From Candidatus Methylomirabilis sp. (GTDB taxonomy: Bacteria; Oederibacteriota; PGYV01; DYJU01), in contig DYJU01000003.1 in the NCBI GenBank assembly GCA_020722985.1, positions 1 to 54,193 of the forward strand: DNA of 54,193 nt, read 5' to 3'. Each line of letters starts with the position of its first letter. The first letter of the stretch is position 1. Positions 1,174-45,063 of the stretch are shown here, one piece after another. The notes beneath the pieces were generated by a model that saw only the letters and a list, made by a program, of their open reading frames with translations, was not told the origin of the DNA and did no database searches. The position numbers and the translations under genes were made by a program.

Positions 1174-3969
1174 TTATTTATCTCTCTCTTTAGTTTTTTT
1201 CCCTTTTTTTTCTATTTTTTCTTTTACTGCTGCCTGTGCAGCTGCAAGCCTTGCAATAGGAACTCTGAAAGGTGAGCAGGAAACATAATCAAGTCCAGTT
1301 CTATGACAGAATTCAACAGAAGCAGGGTCTCCACCATGTTCACCACATATTCCTAACTTTAATTTGGGTCTTGTTGACCTTCCTGCTTTAACTGCTATAT
1401 CAACTAATTTACCAACACCTTCCTGGTCAAGAGTCTGGAATGGATCCTTTTCAAATATGCCCTTATCTATATATACTTTTGTAAATTTCCCGGAATCATC
1501 CCGTGAAAAACCAAGTGTTGTCTGGGTTAAATCATTTGTTCCAAATGAGAAAAACTCTGCTTCTTTTGCAATTTCATCTGCTGTTATTGCAGCCCTCGGT
1601 ATCTCTATCATTGTTCCAACCATATATTGAATTTTTACGCCTTTCTCTTCCATTACTTTTTTGGCTGTTTCATCAATTATTTTCTTCTGATCAATAAACT
1701 CCTTTAAAAATCCAACAAGCGGAACCATAACTTCCGGAACTATTTTTTTACCTTTTTCTATAAGATTTGCCGCAGCTTCAAAAATAGCCCTTGCCTGCAT
1801 TTCTGAAATTTCAGGATAAGTAATACCAAGGCGACAACCTCTATGTCCAAGCATTGGATTAAATTCATGCAACTCTTCTACCCTATGAAGTAATTTTTCC
1901 GCTTTTTCAAGGTCATTTTTCCCTTCTGGAACAAGTTCAAGTGCTTTTTTAATTATTTCATTATTGGTTGTAGTTGTATTATTTGCTTTCATCGTAACTA
2001 TCTCAGACATTAATTCTTCTCTTTTGGGTAAAAATTCATGAAGTGGTGGGTCAAGTAATCTTATTGTAACTGAATAACCTTCCATTGTTGCAAATAATCC
2101 TTCAAAATCACTTCTCTGCATTGGTAAAAGTTTGTCAAGAGCATCTCTTCTTCCTTTTTCATCATGAGCAAGAATCATTGCCTGCATATGCGGCAATCTA
2201 TCTTCGGCAAAAAACATATGTTCTGTCCTACAAAGCCCTATCCCTTCTGCTCCAAAATTCCTTGCTACTTTTGCATCTCTTGGAATATCAGCATTTGCTC
2301 TTACTTTTAATTTTCTCATTTTATCAACCCATTTCATAAATATTCCAAATTCGCCTTCCATTTTAGGTTCAACAGTCGGAACTTTTCCTAAAATCACATT
2401 ACCGGTTGAACCGTCCAGAGAAATCCAATCACCTTCTTTTACTACTATATCTTTACCTTTTACTAAAAATTGCTTATTATCTTCATCAATTTTTAAATCC
2501 TCACATCCTGCAACACAGCATTTACCCATACCCCTTGCAACAACTGCTGCATGTGATGTCATACCACCACGTGCTGTTAAAATACCTTTTGCTTTATCCA
2601 TCCCATGTATATCATCAGGACATGTTTCTAACCTGACTAAAATAACCTTTTCGCCTTTTTCTGCCCATTCAACTGCTTCATCTGCTGTAAAAACAACCCT
2701 GCCTGAAGAAGCGCCTGGCGATGCTGGTAATCCTTTTGCAATTATATTAAGTTTTACTTTCGGATCAAAAACCGGATGCAACAACTGGTCAAGGGTATTA
2801 GGCGCAACTCTTAATATCGCTTCTTCTTCTGTTATTAATCCTTCCTTAACCATATCTACAGCAATTCTTACCGCTGCTTTTGCCGTTCTTTTTCCCGACC
2901 TTGTCTGTAACATAAATAATTTTTTCTTTTCTATTGTAAATTCAAAATCCTGAACATCCCTGTAATGTTTTTCCAATCTGCTGGTTATTTCTCTGAGTTG
3001 CCTGAAAACTTCTGGCATTTCTTTTTCAAGTTCTGAAATTGGTTTTGGTGTTCTTATACCAGCAACTACATCTTCTCCCTGTGCGTTTGTCAGGTATTCG
3101 CCATAAAATACTTTCTCTCCTGTTGCCGGATTTCTGGTAAAACCAACACCGGTTCCAGAATCATCTCCCATATTTCCAAAAACCATTGTCTGAACATTAA
3201 CAGCTGTTCCTAAATTATGTGGTATATCATTTAATTTCCTATATGTTATTGCCCTTTCATTCATCCACGAATTAAAAACTGCGTTTCTTGCTATTCTTAA
3301 TTGTTCAATGGGATCCTGCGGAAAATCAACACCTTTTTCTTTCTTATAAATTTCTTTAAATTGTTTAACAAGAGTTTTCATATCTTCAGCAGTAAGTTCC
3401 ACATCATGTTTTACACCTTTTTTTTCTTTTAACTCATCAATCTTTCTTTCAAAGAAATGCTTGGAGATACCAACTGCGACATCTGAAAACATCTGTATAA
3501 ATCTTCTGTAACTATCATAAGCGAATCTTTCATTACCGGTAAGTTTTGCAAGACCTTCTACAACTTTATCATTTATTCCTAAATTTAAAATTGTATCCAT
3601 CATACCAGGCATTGAAAATTTTGCCCCTGAACGCACAGAAACCAATAATGGATTATTAAGGTCTCCAAATTTTTTGCCTGTTACTTCTTCTAATTTTTTT
3701 ACATAAACAAGCATCTCTTTATCAACCGCATCTGGTATTTTTTTATTATTTTCGTAATACATATTGCATACTTCTGTGGTTATAGTAAAACCTGGCGGGA
3801 CCGGAATTCCTGCATTTGTCATTTCAGCAAGTCCAGCACCTTTCCCCCCTAAAAGCGCTCGCATTTCTCCATTGCCATCAGCTTTGCCTTTGCCGAAAAA
3901 ATAAATATATTTTTTTCCGGCTTTTTTTTCTGGTTTTGTTTTACCTTTTGCCTTTTTTATTTTTGCCAT
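1174..3969 (-). CDS. ppdK: Pyruvate, phosphate dikinase
   Basis: 931 aa; GGKGAGLAEMTNAGIPVPPGFTITTE, swivelling His motif GGMTSHAAVVARGMGKCCVAG, C-terminal FGTNDLTQTTLGFSRDD and GICGEHGGDP. Confidence 0.98.
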   Translation of the reverse strand: MAKIKKAKGKTKPEKKAGKKYIYFFGKGKADGNGEMRALLGGKGAGLAEMTNAGIPVPPGFTITTEVCNMYYENNKKIPDAVDKEMLVYVKKLEEVTGKKFGDLNNPLLVSVRSGAKFSMPGMMDTILNLGINDKVVEGLAKLTGNERFAYDSYRRFIQMFSDVAVGISKHFFERKIDELKEKKGVKHDVELTAEDMKTLVKQFKEIYKKEKGVDFPQDPIEQLRIARNAVFNSWMNERAITYRKLNDIPHNLGTAVNVQTMVFGNMGDDSGTGVGFTRNPATGEKVFYGEYLTNAQGEDVVAGIRTPKPISELEKEMPEVFRQLREITSRLEKHYRDVQDFEFTIEKKKLFMLQTRSGKRTAKAAVRIAVDMVKEGLITEEEAILRVAPNTLDQLLHPVFDPKVKLNIIAKGLPASPGASSGRVVFTADEAVEWAEKGEKVILVRLETCPDDIHGMDKAKGILTARGGMTSHAAVVARGMGKCCVAGCEDLKIDEDNKQFLVKGKDIVVKEGDWISLDGSTGNVILGKVPTVEPKMEGEFGIFMKWVDKMRKLKVRANADIPRDAKVARNFGAEGIGLCRTEHMFFAEDRLPHMQAMILAHDEKGRRDALDKLLPMQRSDFEGLFATMEGYSVTIRLLDPPLHEFLPKREELMSEIVTMKANNTTTTNNEIIKKALELVPEGKNDLEKAEKLLHRVEELHEFNPMLGHRGCRLGITYPEISEMQARAIFEAAANLIEKGKKIVPEVMVPLVGFLKEFIDQKKIIDETAKKVMEEKGVKIQYMVGTMIEIPRAAITADEIAKEAEFFSFGTNDLTQTTLGFSRDDSGKFTKVYIDKGIFEKDPFQTLDQEGVGKLVDIAVKAGRSTRPKLKLGICGEHGGDPASVEFCHRTGLDYVSCSPFRVPIARLAAAQAAVKEKIEKKGKKTKERDK

Positions 3970-4082: not shown

Positions 4083-4436
4083 GTAATGGTTTAGTTACTG
4101 AAAAAGCAACATTGAACAAAATATAAATTTTTAAAACATATATTTTATATCTTTGCAACCACTTTTATCTTTGCCATTTTAAAGTCAGGTGAATAATTCC
4201 CTCTGTCTTCTATTCCACCGTTCAATGGACCTGATAAAGCAATTTTGCTTTTATACCCGATCGCCTTTTCGCCTTGTTTTCTTCTGCTTTTAACTGCCAG
4301 ATTGATTCCTTAAGCCTCATATGTCCTTTTTTTCTCTTCTGCACTTTCCTTTCGGTTTCCTGAGAATGACAGTGCCATATATTTACTTACTGATAGCCAA
4401 ACTTTTCCAGGTTACTTCTGGTGGCTGAACTATTAC
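4083..4436 (+). repeat. MITE-like element copy 2 (complete)
   Basis: GTAATGGTTTAGTTACTG...GTGGCTGAACTATTAC with the same internal modules; no clear target duplication. Confidence 0.85.
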
Positions 4437-13997: not shown

Positions 13998-14082
13998 GTA
14001 ATAGTTTAGCCATTGGTAGAACAAAATTGATTAATAAATTTTTTCTGTTGTCATTTTAAAGTCAGGCGAACGATGCCCTTTG
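13998..14082 (+). repeat. MITE-like element, left-end fragment abutting a complete copy
   Basis: GTAATAGTTTAGCCATTGGTAGAACAAAATTG...GTCATTTTAAAGTCAGGCGAACGATGCCCTTTG, stopping exactly where the next copy begins. Confidence 0.85.
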
Positions 14083-14402
14083 GTAACAGTTTAGTCACTT
14101 GTAGAATAAAATTAGTCTATAAATAAATTTTTATTCTGTCATTTTAAAGTCAGGCGAATGATAACTTCTGACTTCTATTCCCTCGTTTAATGAGCCTGAC
14201 AAAGCAATTTTGCTTTTATCACATGATGCCTTCTCTTCTTGTCCTCTTTCGCCTTTCAACTGCCAGATTGCTTCCTTAAGCCTCGTCCGCCCTTATTTCC
14301 CATTTTACATTCCTCTTTCTGCTTCCTGAAAATAACACCGCCAGGTATTTCTTACCAGTAGCCACATTTTTACAAGTAGACTTTTAGTATCTGAACTATT
14401 AT
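14083..14402 (+). repeat. MITE-like element copy 3 (complete)
   Basis: GTAACAGTTTAGTCACTTG...CTGAACTATTAT with the common internal modules. Confidence 0.85.
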
Positions 14403-24369: not shown

Positions 24370-24685
24370 GTAATAGTTTAGCCGTTGGTAGAACAAAATT
24401 GGTCCATAAATAAATTTTTTCATTTGTCATTGCGAAGTCAGGCGAATGATAACTTCTGGCTTCTATAATTTCGTTATTTGAGTCTGACAAAGCAATCTTG
24501 CTTTTATACCCGATCGCCTTTTTATCTTGTCTTCTTTCGTTTTTTAACTGCGAGATTGCATCGTCATGCTCATACGCCCTTATTTTTCTTTCTACACTTT
24601 TCTTTCGGCTTCCTGAGAATGACATCGCCAGGTGTTTCTTTTATTATACGAACTTTTTAATTAATTCTTGTGGCTGAACTATTAC
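24370..24685 (+). repeat. MITE-like element copy 4 (complete)
   Basis: GTAATAGTTTAGCCGTTGGTAGAAC...GTGGCTGAACTATTAC; contains GTCATTGCGAAGTCAGGCGAA and GCGAGATTGC modules. Confidence 0.88.
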
Positions 24686-29691: not shown

Positions 29692-30013
29692 GTAATGGTT
29701 TAGCCACTGGTAGTACAAAATTAGTCCATAAATAAATTTTTTGTTCTGTCATTTTAAAGTCAGGTGAATAATTCCCTCTTTCTTCTATTCCACCTTAACT
29801 TTCGCTTGACAAAGCAATCTTGCTTTTATTACGATTGCTTTCTCTACTTGTTTTCTTACGTTTTCAACTGCAAAATTGCTTCGTTCGGCTCATACGCCCT
29901 TTATTTTTCTCTCTTCACTTCTACTTCGGCTTCCTCACAATGACAGCGTTTTCAAGTGTTTTCTATAAATAGATAAACTTCTACAAGTGGACTCCTGGTG
30001 GCTGAACTATTAC
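29692..30013 (+). repeat. MITE-like element copy 5 (complete), flanked by 7/8-matching duplication ATCATTTG / ATCATTTA
   Basis: GTAATGGTTTAGCCACTGG...GTGGCTGAACTATTAC; flanks 29684-29691 and 30014-30021. Confidence 0.88.
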
Positions 30014-33000: not shown

Positions 33001-33324
33001 GTAACAGTTTAGCCACTGGTAGAATAAAATTAATCTATAAATAAATTCTTGTTTTATCTGTCATTGCGAAGTCAGGCGAACGAGACCTTTGGTCTTCTAT
33101 TACACTGTTTGATGAGTCTGACAAAGCAATCTTGATTTTATACCCGATTGCCTTTTCGCCTTGTTTTCTTCCGCTTTTAACTGCCAGATTGCTTCCTTAA
33201 ACCTCATATACCCTTATTTTTCCTTCTTAACTTTTCTTTCGGCTTCCTTGCAATGACAGTGTTATATATTTACTTAATTGTAGCCACACTTTTCCAAGTT
33301 CACTTCTGGTGGCTGAACTATTAT
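33001..33324 (+). repeat. MITE-like element copy 6 (complete), flanked by exact 8-bp duplication AATTCCTC
   Basis: GTAACAGTTTAGCCACTGG...GGTGGCTGAACTATTAT; flanks 32993-33000 and 33325-33332 identical. Confidence 0.93.
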
Positions 33325-33401
33325 AATTCCTCAAGTCTGACAATCCTACAATAATTAGTTAGATTCCCCAAACATAAGTGATCCATTATCATAAAAACAT
33401 T

Positions 33402-41471: not shown

Positions 41472-41612
41472 CTAAAAAACTTTCTTCCCTTTACGCGAAG
41501 GTACTTACCGGATTTAATGATAGACCGGGCTTATCGTTTTATTACAAAACGCATTACCGTTGCGCGACAGCGCTCCGAATCTCACAGAGACTTCCTTCAT
41601 TAAATCAGTTAT
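41472..41612 (-). promoter_or_regulatory. Cobalamin (B12) riboswitch
   Basis: Minus-strand GAAGGAAGTCTCTGTGAGATTCGGAGCGCTGTCGCGCAACGGTAATGCG...GATAAGCCCGGTCTATCA, with B12-box-like core GCGCTGTCGCGCAACGGTAA, upstream of the terminator and B12 genes. Confidence 0.93.
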
Positions 41613-41658
41613 AAAAATTTTAAAATATTTTTTTATTTATGTCAACTGTTTTTATAAT

Positions 41659-41977
41659 ATAATAATTTAGCCACTTGTAGCCCAAAATTGCTCCATAAAT
41701 AAATTTTTTTATTTTGTCATTTTAAAGTCAGGCAAACAAGCCCCTTTGTCTTCTATTTCCCCGTTCTTTGAGCCTGACAAAGCAATCTTGCTTTTATATC
41801 CGATCGCCTTTTTATCTTGTCTTCTTTCGTTTTTCAACTGCCAGATTGCTTCGTCGGACTTCTCATATTTTCCCTTCTATATTCCTCTCTTTCGGCTTCC
41901 TAAGAATGACACGGTCAAGTGTTTCCTTACTGGTAGCCACATTTTTATAAGTTTCCTCCCGTTGACTGAACTATTAT
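41659..41977 (+). repeat. MITE-like element copy 7 (complete)
   Basis: ATAATAATTTAGCCACTTG...GTTGACTGAACTATTAT with the shared internal modules. Confidence 0.85.
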
Positions 41978-42343: not shown

Positions 42344-43510
42344 TCATGTTCTATATTTTTTGATTAAGTCTGGATTATTTTTATATCCTTTACAAAGTTC
42401 TTTAATCGGACAATCTTCACATTTAGGATTTTCGTGATTAAAACAGAAATTCGTACCTATATATACTAACCCATCATCTAATTCTCCAATGCCATAACCA
42501 GTCCCCAATAATAAAGCATTCGGTACTTGTTGGATTTCTATTGTTTGGGGTTTTTTTTTGGTACAAAGATATTCAGCACAAATAGTTTTATATCTTTCAA
42601 ATAGTTTATTGTCCTGTAGTGCCACATCGGACTTTTTCCCTCTGATATTAGTAACTCTGATATAATTTAATCCGCCTTTGCCTTTTCCTTTTTGAATTAC
42701 TTCCCATTTTTCATAGTCATTGATACTTGCCCAGGTTAATAAAAAACCCGTTCGAAAAAATATACGACCAGCATTACTATCAAAAGGTATTTCAAAAGAT
42801 AAATTTTGCCAACCTTTATCCTGTCTTTTTACTAACCTAAAGCTATAGACATACCATTTTACAAAGAGATGTCCTGCTTTATCCCCAATTGCTTTACCAA
42901 GTCCATATCGTTCATTATCTTTAATTGCCTTGCTCATTAACTCAGCAGATTTGAATTCTTCCAAATAATCAACAAGATTCCTTGCATCTTTTTCTAAAAT
43001 TAAAGAAACACATAATGGAACGCCTCAACGAAACACTGCATAATTTAAAACCTGTTTGGAGTTATTCATAAATAAATTGTATTTTTCTGGATTAGATTGA
43101 TTTTCCTTAGCCCATATAGGTGCGTGCACCTTTTTAACACCTTCATGCACAGTGCAAATTTTATCTATAGAAATATTCAATTCTTTGAAAAAGTCCAGTG
43201 GACGATGGAATATTCTAATTTCTTTTTTATAAAGTTCATTAGTAACCTTTATCAGCATTTGACGAAGTCCTTCAATATCAGGGCCCTGGTCTAATACCGC
43301 ATTTAATAACAAAAATCTGGCGATCAACTCACGGCGTGTCCATGGTCCATCTTGTTTGTCCAATTCTTGTATAATCAGGTTCTTGTTATTATCAAAAAAA
43401 TGATTAAAAGGTTCTATCAAATGTATATCTGGTTTGGCACCATATTTCCTACCTATTTTGGCAATGGTAATTAAAAATTCCTGCTCTTGTTTTATAATGT
43501 CTAATGGCAT
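42344..43510 (-). pseudogene. HhH-GPD/endonuclease III-like protein, possible restriction glycosylase, split by in-frame TGA at 43027-43025
   Basis: ORFs 43025-43510 and 42344-42964 are in the same frame, with 20 open codons between the TGA and the annotated downstream start. C-terminal FCFNHENPKCEDCPIKELCKGY resembles the EndoIII Fe-S loop; GLGKAIGDKAGHLFVKW and IPFDSNAGRIFFRTGFL resemble the HhH and VDTHxxR segments. Confidence 0.6.
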
Positions 43511-43518
43511 AATTTTAC

Positions 43519-44409
43519 CTATCTATTAAATAGTTCTAACGATTGAGGAATATTTTTTTTGAATTCTTTTTTAATTCGATAAATATCTTTATCCAATCTC
43601 TCTTTAGCAAACTCATAATATTCCTTTACAATCTCAAAACCGATATATTGACGTTTAAGCATTTTGCTGATGACCGCAACCTGGCCTGATCCTAAAAATG
43701 GATCCAAAATCAAATCCTCTTCTTCACTGGAATAAAGTAATATTTTTTTAATTAGTTCGGCTGGCAATTTAGTCGGTGTCTTCTGGTCACCATTCCAGTA
43801 CTCCCTTTTTATGTACCAGACATCTTCCTTATCCTGATAATGTAAACTTCCACCTGTATCATTTTTATCGCATTTTCCAAAACGTGCATAAGGAAAAAAT
43901 TTCCTTTTCTGTTCATTCTTGCAAACATATAAGCAATGATAATGCGAGGTAACGAATTTCTTTTGAGTTGCCACGCCAAATTGGTATTTCCAGATAATAT
44001 GATTAACTGTTATAAAACCAATTTCATCAAGCGCATTAAGAATATCTTTAAGATTGTTCCATCCCGAAAAAACATACATACTACCAGATTCTTTCAGGAT
44101 GCGGTAAACTTCTTTCATCCATTTTAAGGTAAATTCAAAGTATTTATCTTTAGGAATTTCATGGTAACCTTCAATAACACGTGATTGAGTACGGTTGTAA
44201 TTGCTTCGTTTTGCCTTAAATTCTATAGCAAAGGGCGGATCGGTAATTACTAAATCAATGCTGCTATTAGAAATTTGTTTCATTCCATCTATACAATCCA
44301 TGTTATAAATTTCATTAACAGATGGCTGATAAAAAAGTGCCGGTGCTATCTTTTCTTTTACAAAGAATTGTTTCTTTTTTTTCTGTTTATATTTTACTTT
44401 TGTTTTCAT
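43519..44409 (-). CDS. DNA methyltransferase, beta-class N6-adenine type by motif order
   Basis: 296 aa; motif IV ITDPPFAIEF N-terminal to motif I LDPFLGSGQVAVISKML...YIGFEI. Confidence 0.92.
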   Translation of the reverse strand: MKTKVKYKQKKKKQFFVKEKIAPALFYQPSVNEIYNMDCIDGMKQISNSSIDLVITDPPFAIEFKAKRSNYNRTQSRVIEGYHEIPKDKYFEFTLKWMKEVYRILKESGSMYVFSGWNNLKDILNALDEIGFITVNHIIWKYQFGVATQKKFVTSHYHCLYVCKNEQKRKFFPYARFGKCDKNDTGGSLHYQDKEDVWYIKREYWNGDQKTPTKLPAELIKKILLYSSEEEDLILDPFLGSGQVAVISKMLKRQYIGFEIVKEYYEFAKERLDKDIYRIKKEFKKNIPQSLELFNR

Positions 44410-44638: not shown

Positions 44639-44701
44639 TCAATAGTTTAGCCACTATCAAAACAAAAGTTATCCATATATAAATTTTTCGCTTTGTCATT
44701 T
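44639..44701 (+). repeat. MITE-like element, left-end fragment abutting a complete copy
   Basis: CAATAGTTTAGCCACTATCAAAACAAAAGTTATCCATATATAAATTTTTCGCTTTGTCATT, then the next copy starts. Confidence 0.8.
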
Positions 44702-45063
44702 GTAATAGTTTAATTACTGGTAAAACAAAATTTGCTAATAAATAAATTTTATTGCTATCATTGCAAAGTCAAACAAATGAATCTCTCTATCTTCTATTCT
44801 CCGGGTGTAGACACCCATGGATGGGCGTCTCTACCCTCTAAACCATTCATTGAGTCTGCCAGAGAAATTTTGCTTTTATTGCCGAGCGTATTCTTATCTT
44901 GTCTTCTTTCGTTTTAAACTGCAGGATTGCTTCCTTAAGTCTCATATTACCTTTATTTTCCCTTCTTAACTTTCCTTTCATCTTCCTGAGAATAACATAG
45001 CCATGTATTTACTTACTAATAGTTACACTTTTACAAGTGGACTTCTGGCGTCTGAACTATTAC
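44702..45063 (+). repeat. MITE-like element copy 8 (complete, with an internal insert)
   Basis: GTAATAGTTTAATTACTGG...CTGAACTATTAC; longer than other copies because of CTCCGGGTGTAGACACCCATGGATGGGCGTCTCTACC. Confidence 0.85.

Follow-up and report, generated by a model that had tools for sequence, protein, structure and literature searches.

Restriction-modification (RM) systems in which an amino-methyltransferase gene lies beside the gene of a base-excising restriction (R) enzyme are represented by R.PabI, which has the HALFPIPE fold and is paired with M.PabI (PabI, CcoLI, HpyAXII). A 2023 review lists no glycosylase class of RM other than PabI (PMC10273834), and all methyltransferase-paired restriction glycosylases in the literature that we searched are PabI/HALFPIPE enzymes (PMC10273834, PMC4081073); that literature, which took in few subscription journals and was searched without REBASE, yielded no paper joining HhH-GPD proteins to restriction glycosylases. 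Here we examine a 54,193-nucleotide stretch (the window) of contig DYJU01000003.1 from the bacterium Candidatus Methylomirabilis sp. (GCA_020722985.1), in which a DNA methyltransferase gene is followed by a second gene, the partner, whose product is predicted to be an iron-sulphur (FeS) glycosylase of the HhH-GPD type. We consider it fairly probable, judging from the encoded proteins and their genomic settings, that this pair forms, or once formed, a mobile Type II-like RM system with a base-excising R component.

The resemblance to the R.PabI systems lies in the amino-methyltransferase beside a proposed base-excising R gene, in occurrence in Archaea, and in frequent inactivation of the R gene, which is likewise common in the R.PabI family (PMC10273834). 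R.PabI itself has neither the FeS region nor the HhH-GPD architecture proposed for the partner, and the first-pass annotation had called the R.PabI fold unrelated; we found no sequence relation between the two proteins. Membership of the PabI family was ruled out for the partner, which had no such match in Pfam, NCBIfam, PADLOC and PDB-sequence searches.

Other likenesses are with repair and defence enzymes. MutY excises undamaged adenine from A:G or A:8-oxoguanine mispairs, an activity akin to that proposed for the partner. Both EndoIII and MutY have the C-terminal FeS region in common with it, but they have six residues in the first cysteine loop where the partner has seven, are shorter and without its inserts, and are housekeeping repair genes. 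AGOG (PF09171), the archaeal 8-oxoguanine glycosylase/apurinic-apyrimidinic (AP) lyase, is an all-alpha HhH-GPD enzyme whose Lys–Asp core aligns with that of the partner via an intermediate archaeal family described below; it is a chromosomal repair gene, however, and lacks both the C-terminal four-Cys FeS motif (alignment A9) and the inserts. Mig.MthI resembles the partner, as predicted here, in combining HhH-GPD and FeS features with a link to a DNA methyltransferase system, but it acts on T/G mismatches beside a 5-methylcytosine (m5C) methyltransferase, and repairs rather than restricts. An assignment of our module to the Mig.MthI type was rejected, as the methyltransferase is an amino-methyltransferase (PF01555) and the module holds no nuclease gene. 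Finally, Brig1 and Brig3 are DNA glycosylases of antiviral defence, as is proposed for the partner, but they belong to the uracil-DNA glycosylase (UDG) superfamily and act on phage-modified cytosines, with no methyltransferase partner mentioned (PMC11078745, PMC13160076).

An amino-methyltransferase and its invariable neighbour

The methyltransferase and partner open reading frames (ORFs) of the first-pass annotation were located where they had been placed, and the product of the former is an amino-methyltransferase (Table 1). The motif order is that of the beta class, with DPPF (motif IV) preceding DPFLGSG (motif I). The protein matched the PADLOC model MTase_II (4.9e-70) and the CcrM model NF050803 (5.7e-38, under the equivalog cut-off), and the nearest solved structure is that of CcrM (PDB 6pbd, E 3e-26). 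We predict a CcrM-like DNA methyltransferase that modifies N6 of adenine or N4 of cytosine.

The partner gene was recovered in six genomes, that of the window and five others, all five archaeal, when 85,462 species genomes were scanned once and more than 900 genomes were searched with a protein or a profile. The first-pass annotation had asked whether intact homologues always adjoin the methyltransferase; a PF01555 methyltransferase is adjacent in six of six genomes, those with the intact copies L002 and L028 among them. The reading frames of the pair overlap in L028 (partner start 1474, methyltransferase end 1508) and in L009 (1471 and 1483, respectively), 8 bp separate the end of the methyltransferase from the downstream partner frame in the window, and the two genes are adjacent on the same strand in L012 and L024; in L002 they are divergent. 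Given a handful of such methyltransferases per 2000 genes, we roughly estimate the chance of fortuitous adjacency at ~1% or less per genome. The methyltransferases of the relatives are 31–67% identical to that of the window, and the one in L009 is a divergent subtype (31%), yet its partner is 58% identical to the partner in L028. Neither in the window nor in L002 does the module contain a nuclease gene.

This arrangement bears on a scenario in which the partner, acting as a Type IV-like glycosylase, attacks the modified bases of invaders, as Brig1 and Brig3 do, and merely travels with methyltransferases in defence cassettes. Base-excision defence of this kind does exist (PMC11078745, PMC13160076), and the divergent orientation in L002 means that the pair need not form one operon. 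Nevertheless, the adjacency is invariable, mostly on the same strand and in two cases accompanied by overlapping frames, while Brig1 and Brig3 have the UDG fold and a methyltransferase is mentioned in the text of neither paper; we therefore regard this scenario as very improbable.

HhH-GPD signatures of the partner and the bridging archaeal family

All of the motifs that the first-pass annotation had quoted for the partner were found in its translation, namely ELIARFLLLNAVLDQG (residues 61–76), GLGKAIGDKAGHLFVKW, IPFDSNAGRIFFRTGF and CFNHENPKCEDCPIKELC. Their residues are conserved in archaeal relatives 53–58% identical to the window protein, and so beyond what chance would leave. Two of the earlier descriptions needed amendment: the Lys-bearing motif is present, but it is best read as IGDKA (K211) rather than GLGK, and the four C-terminal cysteines are spaced C-X7-C-X2-C-X5-C and not in the classical EndoIII pattern C-X6-C-X2-C-X5-C. 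A first loop of seven residues also occurs in some members of the bridging family introduced below. The FeS region of the partner matched EndoIII/MutY by hhalign at 1.7e-8, TIGR01084 (mutY) matched the partner at 2.5e-4 in the window and 1.9e-5 in L028 (over the C-terminal 47 residues of the latter), and PF10576 (EndIII_4Fe-2S) gave a sub-threshold E of 0.0063 for the window. Partner proteins have no Pfam domain above cut-off, with PF00730 and PF09171 unmatched and no significant Pfam match across the N-terminal two thirds, and a PDB sequence search returned nothing beyond weak EndoIII/MutY matches. Restriction endonuclease models in Pfam, NCBIfam and PADLOC were not matched either; we likewise saw no PD-(D/E)xK or HNH motif, the absence of which the first-pass annotation had remarked on, and these libraries gave no indication of the standard nuclease fold that it had named as grounds for abandoning its proposal.

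Profile searching drew in an uncharacterised FeS protein family of ~317 aa, encoded by 77 of 300 Thermoproteota genomes, which we assembled anew from Thermoproteota members as a 24-row alignment (A6) and refer to as the bridging family. Its members are chromosomal, lack the partner's inserts, and are the closest homologs found beyond the partner family itself. Individually, 18 of the 24 match AGOG in Pfam (best 1.7e-7) and 14 match Q_salvage (best 1.1e-9), with further matches to EndIII_4Fe-2S and HhH-GPD. In profile comparisons the family aligned with AGOG at 1e-10, bringing the catalytic Lys and Asp into register, and at 2e-9 with EndoIII/MutY, where the Asp and the FeS motif coincided. The partner in turn aligned with the bridging family at an hhalign E of 4.5e-7, collinearly across nearly the whole protein. 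A joint alignment of 28 proteins (A7) retained as invariant a helix Asp (that of VLDQ in the N-terminal helix, 28 of 28), a Lys, a second Lys seven residues on, an Asp and two Arg, and the four Cys are conserved wherever the FeS region is present. When a Lys block and an Asp block of the partner were matched to the bridging family with their spacing restricted to 15–45 residues, the match fell exactly on GDKACHLFAK and VPFDSNAGRVLFRTG, and none of 2500 column shuffles did as well; because the null for the block tests consists of shuffled columns rather than real proteins, the p-values are generous. Members of the family are found at loci L034–L063, L016, L017 and L019–L021, and in L016, L017, L019 and L021 the gene is convergent to a conserved DPPRF methyltransferase.

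Several observations weigh against placing the partner among the HhH-GPD enzymes and against the restriction system built on that placement. Much of the E-value linking partner and bridging family derives from the FeS region, and the core without that region scored 21.6 by hhalign, which is not above the null (shuffle maxima of 21–27). A blind version of the block test with six automatically chosen blocks was marginal (26 of 3000), and three to five blocks gave nothing. Direct comparison with AGOG was likewise poor: matching of the Lys and Asp blocks gave 21 of 2500 with the Lys block displaced by one Lys, and hhalign against PF09171 was not significant (0.42). Two AlphaFold runs, on alignments of 6 and 28 rows, with the window's read-through row left out of one, produced mostly helical models with a predicted local distance difference test (pLDDT) score of 43 and 53, and Foldseek returned no PDB match for the partner model (pLDDT 53); these models were not used as evidence. 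Full-length intact sequences number two (L002 and L028), and FeS glycosylases of the repair type may also accompany methyltransferases, as Mig.MthI does.

Such results might instead point to a restriction endonuclease with a different fold, to which an FeS-binding C-terminus was added and whose Lys–Asp match is convergent. The N-terminal two thirds devoid of significant Pfam matches, the weak core in hhalign and the pLDDT of 53 are consistent with this. Convergence does not readily account for Lys and Asp blocks in the correct order and at the correct spacing, at a level reached by 0 of 2500 shuffles, nor for a collinear alignment to the bridging family over nearly the full length of the partner, and the partner matches no PADLOC endonuclease model and carries no PD-(D/E)xK or HNH motif; we find this explanation quite unlikely. 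The partner thus very probably belongs to the HhH-GPD superfamily, as a remote member, since the link runs through the bridging archaeal family, and the EndoIII-like reading given in the first-pass annotation gains support from sequence profiles by the same route.

Patchy distribution, decay and genomic surroundings

The six carriers span a bacterial phylum, Thermoproteota and Altiarchaeota; the partner was absent from the other 44 genomes of the window's phylum that were searched, and tblastn of plasmids and phages gave no match. Such patchy spread is what a rare gene moving horizontally would show. Two distant matches within the window's phylum were rejected as MutY-type proteins picked up by the FeS motif. 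The Altiarchaeales partner frame (L009, 1471–2703) runs into a 466-aa minus-strand frame (2544–3944) resembling an insertion-sequence transposase, and the split of this copy looks like insertional inactivation or strain mixture. Downstream of the partner C-terminus in the Altiarchaeales genome (L003, 357–1548) lie genes of 171 and 230 aa that are not in the window; the two had no convincing family match in library searches, and the 230-aa product contains a PD-(D/E)xK-like GNTEFDGF...WDFKSH, judged by eye only.

In the window the in-frame TGA divides the partner into ORFs at 43025–43510 (161 aa) and 42344–42964 (206 aa). The first-pass annotation treated the two as a conceptual 388-aa "fusion"; they belong instead to one gene, interrupted by a lone premature stop. 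This stop may mean either that the gene was recently inactivated or that the sequence is wrong at that point. An alternative genetic code was set aside as its cause, given that the other genes near the module read as long, open frames under table 11, and is also disfavoured by the partner being broken in other genomes as well. Compared with the intact relatives, the window partner shows a proportion of nonsynonymous differences (pN) of 0.30 with saturated synonymous differences (pS), and therefore appears to have been under purifying selection until recently, before the stop arose. Because of the TGA the window glycosylase is probably inactive, making the gene a probable pseudogene and leaving the methyltransferase as an orphan. 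A broken partner beside an apparently intact methyltransferase is found both in the window and in genome G097, and G081 carries a deletion remnant.

The persistence of the methyltransferase where the glycosylase decays would also be expected under the main competing explanation, methylation-linked repair, in which the glycosylase clears deaminated or damaged products at the sites of an orphan or regulatory methyltransferase. Repair is indeed the default role of HhH-GPD FeS glycosylases. A precedent is Mig.MthI, a known T/G mismatch glycosylase (PMC2714593). We nonetheless hold repair to be unlikely, since the module has no separate nuclease in the window or L002, so that repair would serve a bare methyltransferase, since the partner contains segments that its housekeeping relatives lack, as sequence recognition predicts, and since its patchy gain and decay resemble those of RM. 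To our knowledge, moreover, deamination of N6-methyladenine or N4-methylcytosine is no recognised major mutagenic problem.

On one side of the module in the window lie a riboswitch and cobalamin-related genes, and on the other a gene for an unrelated membrane protein; copies of a dispersed ~320-bp repeat flank the module (Table 1). Further copies lie at 726–1043, 4163–4435, 13999–14377, 24371–24641, 29693–30012 and 33002–33333; copies are ~72–80% identical and all in the same orientation within the window, and the genome contains at least 47 matches. The repeat had no Rfam match, and 14 relatives checked, a same-genus one included, gave trivial short matches only. With the repeat being so common, the flanking of the module may be a coincidence.

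Table 1 Coordinates and condition of the module, its motifs, its relatives and its flanks (positions refer to the window)
Feature	Position	Strand	Basis or remark
Beta-class amino-methyltransferase gene, 296 aa	43519..44409	-	PF01555 N6_N4_Mtase, E 1.9e-41
Partner gene, FeS HhH-GPD-like glycosylase (predicted), 388 codons with one in-frame TGA	42344..43510	-	Uninterrupted relatives 53–58% identical
In-frame TGA, partner codon 162	43025..43027	-	Frame open in intact copies L002 and L028
N-terminal helix ELIARFLLLNAVLDQGPD, residues 61–78; bridging-family counterpart EDVLRYFIVMVAMDHR	43277..43330	-	hhalign and alignment A7
Predicted catalytic Lys K211 (IGDKAGHLFVK), paired with AGOG K140 via bridging family	42878..42880	-	Profile alignments and block test
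Predicted catalytic Asp D244 (IPFDSNAGRIFFRTG), paired with AGOG D172 and EndoIII Asp via bridging family	42779..42781	-	
Basic insert WEVIQKGKGKGGLNYIRVTNIRGKK, residues 269–293 (KGKG...RVTNIRGKK)	42632..42706	-	Largely missing from bridging family (A7)
FeS-cluster motif C356-X7-C364-X2-C367-X5-C373	42392..42445	-	PF10576, TIGR01084 mutY, hhalign to EndoIII/MutY
Partner in L002, Thaumarchaeota metagenome-assembled genome			Intact, 407 aa
Partner in L028, genome G277			Intact, 416 aa; predicted Lys–Asp pair K233/D268
Partner in L009 with L003/L010, Altiarchaeales genome			Split; C-terminus on separate contig
Partner in L012, G097			Frameshifted, without FeS region
Partner in L024/L013, G081			Gene start at contig edge; deletion remnant elsewhere
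Dispersed ~320-bp repeat copy, one flank of module	41660..41976	+	
Second repeat copy with partial duplication, other flank	44640..45062	+	Same orientation as first
Adenosylcobalamin (B12) riboswitch ahead of histidine-phosphatase and cobalamin-related genes	41476..41622	-	Ordinary

A possible base-excising restriction component

Under the RM interpretation that we favour, the methyltransferase would add a methyl group to an amino group within a specific sequence, with N6 of adenine the probable target. The partner would be an HhH-GPD glycosylase/AP lyase with an FeS cluster, akin to the AGOG/EndoIII-like enzymes of Archaea; it would bind the same sequence when unmethylated, then flip out and excise an undamaged base, with the basic KGKG insert as a candidate sequence-recognition loop. 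Because the partner carries the Lys of bifunctional HhH-GPD enzymes, we propose that the K211/D244 pair would form a Schiff base and cleave the strand through beta-elimination, a cut that AP endonucleases of the host might complete; the corresponding pair in Pae-AGOG is K140/D172 (PMC9638937). Sequence specificity, the base excised, protection by methylation and restriction itself are what we infer for the module, and it is plausible that the partner works like a restriction glycosylase. We lean slightly toward the broader view that the family constitutes a second, independently evolved base-excision restriction class, in which an FeS-dependent, sequence-specific HhH-GPD enzyme from the archaeal AGOG/EndoIII-like lineage is held in check by a cognate beta-class amino-methyltransferase.

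The intact archaeal copies in L028 and L002 make the restriction interpretation directly testable. If it is correct, base-excision immunity of the methyltransferase-paired kind would have arisen more than once, and the partner would be the first case of a restriction enzyme arising from the classical base-excision-repair superfamily, offering, in a sequence-specific FeS glycosylase, a means of learning how enzymes of this sort come to recognise DNA sequences.
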